Part shown: in pieces, positions 14,553 through 17,808 of the stretch
How the letters are laid out: each line of letters starts with the position of its first letter
Position numbering within the stretch: position 1 is the first letter of the stretch
Origin: Pseudochrobactrum asaccharolyticum
GTDB lineage: Bacteria > Pseudomonadota > Alphaproteobacteria > Rhizobiales > Rhizobiaceae
Direction of reading: 5' to 3'
Assembly: GCF_003314995.1 (NCBI RefSeq)
Contig: NZ_QNRH01000001.1
Span: 62,001-126,000, forward strand
Length of the DNA: 64,000 bases
Translations under genes and position numbers: made by a program
Notes under the pieces: model-generated
What the model was told of the DNA's origin: nothing
The model's database searches: none
What the model saw: the letters and a program-made list of their open reading frames with translations, nothing else

Positions 14553-15524
14553 GTGACTCGTATCATGACCAGCACATTGCCTGAACACCTGCATCCGACC
14601 CGCTCTTTTCAGGGCTTTATCATGGCGCTCCAGCACTACTGGGCGCAGCATGGCTGCACAATTTTGCAGCCTTACGATATGGAAGTAGGGGCGGGTACGC
14701 TGCATCCGTCCACCACTTTGCGCGCTCTGGGGCCAAAGCCGTGGAATGTTGCCTATGTGCAGCCGTCACGCCGTCCGAAAGACGGCCGCTACGGTGAAAA
14801 CCCGAACCGTATGCAGCATTACTACCAGTATCAGGTATTGCTGAAGCCAAGCCCGCCGAACCTGCAGGAGCTGTATCTCGGCTCGCTGAAGGCGATTGGC
14901 ATTGATACCGACCTGCACGATATCCGCTTTGTTGAGGATGACTGGGAAAATCCGACCACCGGCTCTTGGGGCTTGGGTTGGGAGTGCTGGTGCGATGGTA
15001 TGGAAATCTCGCAGTTCACTTATTTCCAGCAGGTTTGCGGTATCGAATGTTCACCGGTTGCCGGTGAGCTGACCTATGGTCTGGAACGTCTTGCTATGTA
15101 TGTGCAGGGCGTGGACAATGTTTATGACCTGAACTTTAATGGTCTCGAAGGCGAGGACAAGGTAACTTACGGTGACGTGTTCCTTCAGACCGAGCAGGAA
15201 TATTCGCGCTACAATTTCGAAATCGCCAATACCGATATGCTGCACCAGCATTTCATTGATGCGGAAGCGGAATGTAAAGCGGTTCTCGCTGCAGGTGCAC
15301 CACAAGAAGGTGCAACAGGGAACTTACACAAATGCGTATTCCCTGCTTACGATCAGGCGATTAAAGCCTCGCATATTTTCAATCTGATGGATGCCCGTGG
15401 TGTTATTTCGGTAACCGAGCGCCAGAGCTATATCCTGCGTGTGCGCAATCTTGCGCGCCAATGCGGTGAAGCCTTCCTTCAGACCGATGCCGGTGGCGTC
15501 AACTACAAGAACGAGACACGCTGA
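14553..15524 (+). CDS. glyQ: Glycine-tRNA ligase alpha subunit
   Basis: The alpha subunit of the alpha2beta2 bacterial glycyl-tRNA synthetase, holding the class II catalytic core. It has 323 residues from GTG 14553, which has GAGG seven bases upstream; ATG 14565 is a possible alternative. Strongly conserved blocks include [51 protein letters not shown] and [13 protein letters not shown]. Its stop overlaps an ATG in TGATG, the usual translational coupling to glyS. Here, however, the coupled ATG opens a short duplicated fragment instead of the full glyS, which starts 113 bases later. Confidence 0.96.
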
Positions 15525-15680
15525 TGCCTGATTTACTGTTAGAATTGTTTTCGGAGGAAATTCCGGCACAGCCGTCCGCCCGCAACGAAGTGAGGACGGA
15601 CAATACAAAAAATAAGCATGCGGAGGGCGCACGCTGATGCCTGATTTACTGTTAGAGCTTTTTTCCGAGGAAATCCCAGC
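15518..15680 (+). repeat. 113-bp-offset microduplication of the glyS start
   Basis: A 50-bp segment beginning ACGCTGATGCCTGATTTACT occurs at 15518-15567 and again at 15631-15680, with six mismatches. All six are synonymous in the shared reading frame (15 codons). The 63-bp spacer contains an inverted repeat, CCGTCC...GGACGG, and ends with GGAGGG, which supplies a ribosome site for the second ATG. Confidence 0.9.
15524..15637 (+). CDS. 37-residue mini-ORF carrying the first 15 residues of GlyS
   Basis: The ATG at 15524 overlaps the glyQ stop (TGATG). It opens a frame of 37 codons whose first 15 residues, [15 protein letters not shown], equal those of GlyS; the other 22 residues are unrelated, polar and end HAEGAR. 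Its stop overlaps the true glyS ATG, again as TGATG. Two readings are possible: it is a decayed duplicate, or it is translated and passes ribosomes from glyQ to glyS. No independent ribosome site is evident for it. The sequence facts are certain; expression is unproven. Confidence 0.5.
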
Positions 15681-17808
15681 CCGCATGCAGCGTAAAGCTG
15701 CCGGTGATCTTAAAAAGATGATCACAGATGGTCTGGTTGAAGCTGGTCTGACCTATGAGGCGGCAACGCCTTACTGGACACCGCGTCGTCTGACTTTGGA
15801 TATTCGTGGTCTGACTGTGCGTTCAAAAGACGTGCATGAAGATATCAAAGGCCCGTCTGTTTCTGCGCCTGAGGCTGCAATTCAGGGCTTCCTGCGTAAA
15901 GCTGGCTTGAGCGATATTGCGCAGGCGCATGTGCATTCTGATCCGAAGAAGGGTGACTTCTACGTCGCCCATATCACCAAATCCGGACGTGCTGCGGAAG
16001 AAATTATCGCGGAACTGGTGCCGAATGTGGTGCAGAATTTCCCGTGGCCGAAATCCATGCGCTGGGGCAAGGCTTCGGCGCAGTCAGGTGCGATGCGCTG
16101 GGTACGTCCGCTGCAGTCGATCATTTGCCTGTTTGGTCCTGAAACCGAAGAAACTGTTGTGGTGGATTTTGAAGTCGGTGGCGTGCGCTCTGGCAACACC
16201 ACACATGGTCACCGTTTCATGAGCGATGGTCAGCCGATCACCGTGCGCCGCTTTGACGATTATGTCGAAAAGCTGGAAAAAGCGCATGTGGTGCTCGATG
16301 CTGAACGCCGTAAAGAAATCATTCTCACCGATGCCCGCAATCTGAGCTTTGCCTCCGGTCTGGAGCTGGTTGAAGACGAAGGCCTGCTGGAAGAAGTTTC
16401 CGGTCTGGTCGAGTGGCCGGTGGTATTGATGGGCGAATTTGAGGAAGAATTCCTCTCGATTCCGCCGGAAGTGATCCGTCTGACCATCCGTGCCAATCAG
16501 AAATGCTTTGTCACCCGCAAGCAGGGCGAGACAGATGCACTTTCCAACAAGTTCATTTTGATCTCCAATATTGCTGCCCGTGACGGTGGCAAAGAAATCG
16601 CTTTCGGTAACGGCAAGGTTGTGCGTGCACGCCTGTCCGATGCCTTGTATTTCTGGCATACCGATCAGGCAGATATGCCGGATATGGACAAGCTGAAAGC
16701 TTCCGCTGCGAAATTCGCGCTTGATCTGGCTAAGCCGCTTGATCAGCGCATGGCGCGTCTGGATTCGCTGAATGTGACCTTCCATGCCAAGCTCGGCACG
16801 CAGGGCGCGCGCGTGGCACGCATCAAGGCGCTTGCTGAGGCAATTGCACCGCTGGTCGGCGCAGATGTTACGCTGACTGCCCGTGCGGCAGTGTTGGCAA
16901 AAGCCGATTTGCAGACTGAAGTTGTCGGCGAGTTCCCTGAACTACAGGGTGCAATGGGCCACAAATATGCGCTTCTTCAGGGTGAAGATGCTGCTGTTGC
17001 AACCGCGCTTGAAGATCATTACAAGCCGCAGGGTCCGTCCGACCGCGTACCACGCGATCCGGTTTCGGTTGCCGTTGCGCTTGCGGATAAAATCGACACG
17101 CTTGTCGGTTTCTGGGCGATTGATGAAAAGCCGACAGGTTCGAAAGATCCTTATGCGCTGCGCCGTGCTGCCCTTGGTGTGATCCGCCTGATTTTGGAAA
17201 ATGATATCCGTGCGGAATTGAAAGCACTGATTGCACAGGCAGAAAAGCCGATGGCTTTGATTGAAGGTCTGGCATCAAAAGATGTTGGTGCTGACCTGCT
17301 GTCCTTCTTCCATGACCGTTTCAAAGTCTATCTGAAGGATGAAGGTGCACGCCACGATGCGATTGATGCAGTCCTGTCCGCCGATGCTGATAATCTGCTG
17401 CTGGTTGCCCGTCGTCTTGAAGCACTGATCGTTTTCATCAATGAGGAAGACGGCAAGAACCTGCTGGCAGGCACCAAGCGTGCAGCCAATATTCTCGGGG
17501 CAGAAGAGAAAAAAGGCACTGTCATTGCTGACAGTGTGGATGCCGCACTCTTCAACAATGAAGAAGAAAAAGCATTGTTTGCTGCGGTGCAGTCGGCAGA
17601 AACCAAAGCTGCTGCGGCCATTGCCAAGGAAGATTTCTCGGCAGCTATGTCGGCAATGGCCGAGCTGCGTGCACCGGTTGATGCCTTCTTTGACAAGGTG
17701 ATGGTCAATGATGAGAATGAAGCCATCCGCGCTAATCGCTTGGCATTGCTGGCTAAAATCCGTGTCGTAACCGGTCAGGTTGCTGATTTCTCAAAGATCA
17801 GCGGCTAA
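15637..17808 (+). CDS. glyS: Glycine-tRNA ligase beta subunit
   Basis: The beta subunit of the tetrameric glycyl-tRNA synthetase, 723 residues. It binds tRNA and includes a C-terminal anticodon-binding-like region. Family blocks are [18 protein letters not shown] at the N-terminus, [41 protein letters not shown] and [17 protein letters not shown]. The ATG has GGAGGG nine bases upstream, within the inserted spacer. It follows glyQ, but the two are separated by a 113-bp duplication rather than joined directly. It ends close to an interspersed repeat and a bidirectional terminator. Confidence 0.96.

Follow-up and report, generated by a model that had tools for sequence, protein, structure and literature searches.

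Why should a gene carry a second copy of its own start, and why should the two copies differ only at synonymous positions? The question arises at the glyQ–glyS junction in a 64,000-nt stretch of Pseudochrobactrum asaccharolyticum DNA (contig NZ_QNRH01000001.1, positions 62,001–126,000; hereafter "the window," with positions counted from its first letter). We find that this doubled start is one example of a recurrent unit in which a short hairpin element, H, lies between an outer (T1) and an inner (T2) copy of a gene terminus. Judged on sequence comparison, H is a structured family that sits in one orientation at conserved gene termini, at sites that also exist empty, and the gene remains intact by way of T2. 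With moderate confidence, we read H as a site-specific mini-element that preserves gene termini, presumably mobile and presumably served by a recombinase.

The glyS Unit in the Window and in Relatives

An earlier note, made from the window's letters, described the outlines of the unit correctly. A 37-codon frame does open at an ATG overlapping the glyQ stop, the glyS start does recur 113 bp downstream (a direct repeat of 51 nt at 88% identity), and TGATG stands at both junctions, accompanied by a GGAGGG. The features, all on the forward strand, are:

15517–15567 (+): T1, outer copy of the glyS start; direct repeat, homologous to the only glyS start in same-genus relatives
15524–15637 (+): T1 reading frame, 37 codons, ending in TGATG at the real glyS start
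15570–15606 (+): H, covarying hairpin with conserved internal loop, the element core (match to core model R2, 49.2 bits, E = 2.8e-11)
15616–15623 (+): rcD, GCATGCGG, reverse complement of a stretch beside the T2/body junction
15622–15627 (+): GGAGGG, Shine-Dalgarno-like in its presumed role, 9 nt before the real glyS ATG
15630–15680 (+): T2, inner terminus copy, continuous with the functional gene; direct repeat
15681–15688 (+): D, CCGCATGC, complementary to rcD
15637–17808 (+): glyS, functional gene body (NCBIfam TIGR00211)
14553–15524 (+): glyQ, for context, with a stop TGA that overlaps the first ATG (NCBIfam TIGR00388); its GTG start as listed is a longest-open-reading-frame choice only

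The copies differ at six bases in 51 bp, all of them synonymous as claimed, and their first 15 codons specify the same residues. The codons concerned are GAA/GAG, TTG/CTT (two bases), TCG/TCC, ATT/ATC, and CCG/CCA; GCA/GCC also differs, its third base falling just outside the 51-bp repeat. The insert between T1 and T2 is 62 bp long. That the doubled start is an assembly artefact is very unlikely, because another genome of the genus, G002, is arranged alike (92% over 401 bp).

Among other genomes of the genus, compared with that of the window (G000), G002 has T1 and the insert; G001, G003, G004, and G006 have a single start and no insert; and G005 (61% complete) yielded no match to the glyS unit. 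The unit is missing, that is, from four of the six same-genus genomes with a match. Many genomes of the family carry an extra glyS start 112–134 bp upstream, and G163, G181, and Rhizobium lemnae carry two; among the matches listed, 18 of the 80 named glyS loci have an extra copy. Presence can differ even within a species: in Mesorhizobium loti, strain DSM 2626 carries the glyS unit and strain LU has none. The glyS loci examined held no T1 copies more than 260 bp from glyS, such as larger elements would leave. The C-terminal part of the T1 peptide is not conserved and changes frame between genera. Two further observations concern the surroundings of the unit. The glyQ of single-copy relatives (L004, L005, L006, L007) has extra in-frame codons around KDIQEAGSAGG that are missing from the window glyQ at ~15295–15330, and in L031 and L034 a different palindromic intergenic repeat (CCCTCCCC..GGGGAGGG), which we take to resemble the rhizobial mosaic repeats of the literature, adjoins the glyS unit just upstream of T1.

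A Structured Hairpin at Many Gene Ends

The spacer, which the earlier note could know from a single locus only, recurs at other genes and in other genera. RNAalifold, unprompted, placed a hairpin in an alignment of inserts (A1; 28 of 32 distinct inserts, chosen by hand and with no pairing filter), with changes on both sides in six of nine pairs. A second alignment (A2) took 42 of 51 cores, each required to pair at four of five outer-stem positions; because the cores were pre-filtered in this way, the A2 outer stem is not independent evidence. Across the full 13-pair helix, 97.9% of cells are paired and 34 double changes occur versus 7.6 in shuffles, and the covariation signal was destroyed when the helix partner was slid along the alignment. 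Conservation extends to an internal loop (CCGCA / GAGGA) and to the CAAAC-like A-rich stretch after it. The core is about 43 nt long, the insert roughly 50–75 bp (about 50–80 bp between T1 and T2 in the examples inspected), and the whole unit about 100–130 bp. Searched against Rfam 15, the window region gave no match, and five other loci gave only three sub-threshold matches.

With the model R1, a further strong site emerged in the window genome (C6:17109–17181, E = 7.5e-12), along with matches in 139 of the 394 genomes of the family (E ≤ 0.01), while R2 matched in 120 of the 394, spanning 56 of 109 genera, at E ≤ 1e-4. Our catalogue consists of 173 R2 matches from 100 regions (the best among the matches listed) plus 33 glyS loci. 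Peptide signatures place 149 of these units at seven genes (glyS 56, mmsA 33, hisF 23, ilvC 20, cimA 7, hisA 6, sdhB 4) and leave 24 unclassified; target names were checked with NCBIfam on one example per gene, the cimA example being partial and below the curated cut-off. H lies at the starts of glyS, hisF, hisA, and cimA and at the 3' ends of mmsA, ilvC, and sdhB, and ARAGORN identified tRNA-Ile, tRNA-Ala, and tRNA-Met genes beside further units. Some tRNA-associated units stand apart as observations: G109 has two apparently identical copies (L219, L220) at two tRNA-Met genes, and in L189, L200, and L218 N stretches adjoin hairpin units near rRNA-operon-like tRNA sequences, so that these units are only partly examinable.

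Outside the family, matches to H at E ≤ 1e-3 came from 5 of 384 genomes in a class sample and from 5 of 292 in a phylum sample. Inspection, which left out G952 and G965, showed the unit architecture in G516, at a tRNA-Met gene, and a similar hairpin core only in G538, G637, G667, and G744; a Paroceanicella plasmid provides a further tRNA-adjacent unit from outside the family (tRNA-Ile). A separate case is G1002 (L279 / L280), from another family of the order, in which a tandem array of a 46-bp H-like hairpin unit lies just after a gene end; it has no terminus copies, and degenerating units come after intact ones.

The whole unit had no match among phages and one weak match among plasmids. H alone gave seven weak phage matches (22–24 nt, E = 0.9) and two plasmid matches, one of them the Paroceanicella tRNA-Ile unit. 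Both matches of a pattern scan of viral contigs are coding coincidences. We rejected a phage or plasmid source.

Terminus Copies and Arrays

The duplication of the gene terminus is general. In 148 of the 173 units the T1/T2 direct repeat exceeds the maximum of 519 shuffled controls, and in 137 of these 148, T1 ends within −2 to +3 nt of the start of the hairpin model. The repeat has a median length of 47 bp (interquartile 44–49 bp; 109 non-array units). The order T1–H–T2–body holds throughout, with no unit inverted or with the gene body on the wrong side, and in the 149 classified units T2 runs on into the gene body. H thus points along transcription at gene starts and against it at gene ends, and this fixed order, opposite to transcription at gene ends, argues for an event at the DNA level. 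The inserts between T1 and T2 encode no integrase. Terminal inverted repeats with a short target duplication are not seen; the hairpin is internal, and the window region holds no inverted repeat of at least 12. Filled and empty sites both occur, the empty ones within the same genus.

Several loci have tandem arrays of near-identical units, with periods of 104, 122, 123, and others. Unit number at the mmsA 3' end varies within the genus of the window genome: in the loci compared (L160, at C6:16100–18200 of G000, and L161, L162, and L163), G000 and G001 have one unit, G006 two, and G002 four (period 104).

A Reading-Frame Relay at Gene Starts

The earlier note saw at glyS a relay from one TGATG to the next, and the wider set supports it. 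There are 92 start-type units, of which 74 are evaluable (6 being duplicates, 4 having no T, and 8 having a start that was not located). In 71 of the 74, the T1 frame meets its first stop between −12 and +6 nt relative to the real start, versus 9 of 148 other-frame controls, and in 71 of the 74 T1 retains a start codon (ATG, GTG, or TTG). Although the counts are inflated by shared ancestry, unit length, frame, and stop covary across groups; with units collapsed to target by genus or named group, the stop lies at the real start in 44 of 45, versus 7 and 0 in the other frames.

The stop is reached in two ways. Where unit length is 2 mod 3, the unit mostly ends with TGATG or ATGA; where it is 1 mod 3, codons 2–3 of the real gene form a TGA. 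The second codon of glyS has a final T in 13 of 14 units of the latter class versus 9 of 32 of the former (p = 6e-5; 11 of 12 versus 7 of 19 with one unit per genus or group, p = 0.003). In two loci that have lost T1 and kept H—L022 (G124) and L216 (G263)—glyQ itself runs through H and stops two bases before the A of the glyS start, its stop overlapping the glyS ATG. No frame coupling was found at 3' ends, where open frames number 27 of 31 at mmsA (control frames 56 of 62), 11 of 15 at ilvC (25 of 30), and 2 of 3 at sdhB (3 of 6).

The leader stop at the next start is conserved between lineages, in the manner of a translationally coupled leader. Ribosomes would load at the native start in T1, read on across H, and terminate at the real start; the conserved frame suggests that they could reinitiate there with the help of the TGATG or ATGA overlap and the GGAG of the insert. 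An insertion at a gene start would be tolerated because T1 ribosomes stop where they are able to reinitiate. Regulation of the alpha/beta balance, which the earlier note entertained, is not supported as a general function: glyQ is often distant (0.4–2.3 kb from glyS in many genomes), and the element lies at unrelated genes.

Synonymous Differences and Allele Exchange

For the synonymous-only differences, two explanations had been offered, recombination with a diverged allele and selection on the short peptide. The comparison of G000 with G002 favors the former. These genomes differ at 2 of 68 nt in the insert, 4 of 120 in the glyQ tail, and 31 of 300 in the gene body; in T1 the count is 8 of 45 and in T2 6 of 45, with no residue change. 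As T1 is far more diverged than the insert or the glyQ tail and still encodes the same peptide, the copies must have been exchanged after the insert became common to both genomes.

Selection on the peptide does not follow from the synonymous pattern, for the same bias appears at mmsA 3' ends. Codons differing between T1 and T2 divide into same-residue and changed ones as 173:28 at glyS, 63:19 at mmsA, 16:4 at sdhB, 24:7 at hisA, 60:32 at hisF, and 11:8 at cimA (10 classified units with no T and 4 with no frame signature are left out of these counts). The mmsA and sdhB copies are C-termini with no start of their own, and translation of a leader peptide therefore cannot cause their bias. The pattern fits exchange with functional alleles; the slightly stronger glyS bias leaves some room for a small additional constraint.

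Complementarity to the Junction

The stretch of insert between H and T2, which includes rcD in the window, is often complementary to the T2/body junction window, and significantly so. The median score is 8 in 138 units versus 4–5 in three controls (inserts shuffled, junctions taken from other genes, and windows taken from elsewhere in the same gene), and scores of at least 8 occur in 80 of the 138 versus 4 of 138 when the other-gene control was repeated. Compared within a target, the inserts of 74 of 101 units fit the junction of their own genome better than those of other genomes; 24 fit it worse and 3 equally well. The stretch may be a guide, a cruciform arm, or a by-product.

Mechanism and Alternative Explanations

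In the mini-element reading, H would enter glyS at a constant site about 45 nt into the gene, giving T1, H, rcD, and a T2 joined to the body. Insertion would be site-specific and would carry or create a replacement gene terminus by way of a trans-acting recombinase, and recombination between T1 and T2 could remove the unit cleanly. Both copies would have served as functional gene ends, maintained through exchange with intact alleles, which would explain why their differences are mostly synonymous.

Several observations weigh against this reading. No recombinase, excised form, or dated insertion was found. The site at each target is the same across genera, which fits ancient single insertions followed by loss, and H clusters by target (mean distance 0.283 within versus 0.323 between, different genera). 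Twenty-five of the 173 units have no T1/T2 above threshold, including all the tRNA-Ile/Ala units as well as masked stretches, array edges, and the two glyS loci that lost T1. The ilvC codon differences (16:16) show no real synonymous bias, rcD is weak at mmsA, hisA, and cimA (median 6), and control frames, too, sometimes end near the start (9 of 148), among units that are not independent.

Shared junctions across genera and the closer likeness of H within a target make a serious rival of ancient fixed insertions, one per target, followed by descent, transfer of the locus by homologous recombination, T1 × T2 loss, and tandem expansion, with no present mobility. Nearly all glyS units share their junction, tandem expansion explains the arrays with periods of 104, 122, and 123, and exchange between T1 and T2 is directly seen. 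The same account must accommodate T1 and T2 that are identical in 17 of 125 non-array units, an identity that is confined to the gene and ends at the start codon (in 33 start-type units whose copies are nearly identical, the 12 nt before the ATG agree at only 176 of 396 positions); a glyS unit, L261, with a shifted junction and a T of 53 bp; and the patchy presence at named glyS loci given above. These three features speak in favor of continuing activity, and ancient fixed insertion seems to us possible, if somewhat unlikely.

The mini-element reading can also be taken further. H might be self-targeting, its hairpin scaffold and a short rcD guide, paired with the uninterrupted gene end over the insertion point, directing a trans-acting enzyme that inserts an H–rcD–T2 cassette into core genes. 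Bringing its own replacement terminus and, at starts, an in-frame relay, such a cassette would make insertion into an essential gene harmless. We put this forward tentatively and think it unlikely.

A glyS-specific cis-regulatory leader, combining an upstream open reading frame and RNA structure to set GlyS level or the alpha/beta balance, would suit a covarying hairpin just upstream of the glyS start and a conserved coupling of the T1 frame to that start. A leader confined to glyS was rejected once the model found H at other genes: H also lies at the 3' ends of mmsA, ilvC, and sdhB, opposite to transcription, and at tRNA genes, and four of the six same-genus genomes with a match have no unit at glyS. 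As a general explanation the leader is largely refuted, and we hold it to be improbable. Selection on the T1 peptide itself, e.g., as a decoy subunit fragment, might account for the keeping of its first 15 residues and for a residue-changing share somewhat lower at glyS (28/201) than at mmsA (19/82), but is highly improbable given the strong same-residue bias where T1 has no start (mmsA, sdhB), the change of frame between genera in its downstream half, and the disappearance of T1 from two loci that keep H.

Implications and Comparison with Known Systems

If H is indeed a mini-element, then it is one too small for annotation that lands repeatedly on core genes of a large bacterial family (glyS, hisF, ilvC, and tRNA genes among them) and keeps the host gene working by bringing or sparing its terminus; were it self-targeting, it would represent a new way to parasitise conserved genes. 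The units are natural replicated tests of reinitiation in which frame and stop position adjust to one another, and even a synonymous codon of the real gene with them. They raise the question of which enzyme moves a 100–130 bp unit and whether the antisense stretch guides that enzyme, and they caution that duplicate starts differing only synonymously need not signal a selected peptide. Searches of open-access full-text literature turned up no description of such an element, and the hairpin element is apparently undescribed so far.

Site-specific integrases insert genomic islands, integrative mobilizable elements, and prophages at gene ends, tRNA genes among them. The H unit resembles these in direct repeats that correspond to a gene terminus, in restoration of the gene, in tRNA targets, and in clean empty sites; it differs in its size (about 100–130 bp), the absence of an integrase, its conserved hairpin, and the antisense of its own junction. 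The bridge RNA of IS110 and the guides of group I/II introns contain a short stretch complementary to the target, much as rcD is complementary to the target across the insertion junction. This is a resemblance only, for the H unit has no recombinase gene or intron core and is known here from DNA alone. With integron attC cassettes it shares tandem units, hairpin-forming DNA, and a similar cassette size, but it has no integron integrase and its sites lie inside housekeeping genes; no attC consensus was seen, none having been looked for. In translational coupling, or termination–reinitiation at TGATG, a leader stop overlaps the next start, as the stop of the T1 frame overlaps the real start; the leader here differs in being a doubled gene start into which an element has been inserted.

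Small non-autonomous repeats, or miniature inverted-repeat transposable elements (MITEs), resemble the H unit in size. Correia, ERIC, RUP, RPE, CIR, and YPAL are examples, and YPAL is described as having internal inverted repeats, 3–26 bp target duplications, and targets near dyad symmetry (PMC2229807). On that description the H unit is similar in being under 200 bp, non-coding, and hairpin-forming (PMC2229807). It is unlike them in that its insert is not bounded by terminal inverted repeats and in that it occurs in one to a few copies per genome, with terminus copies of ~47 bp, at fixed sites at conserved gene ends.
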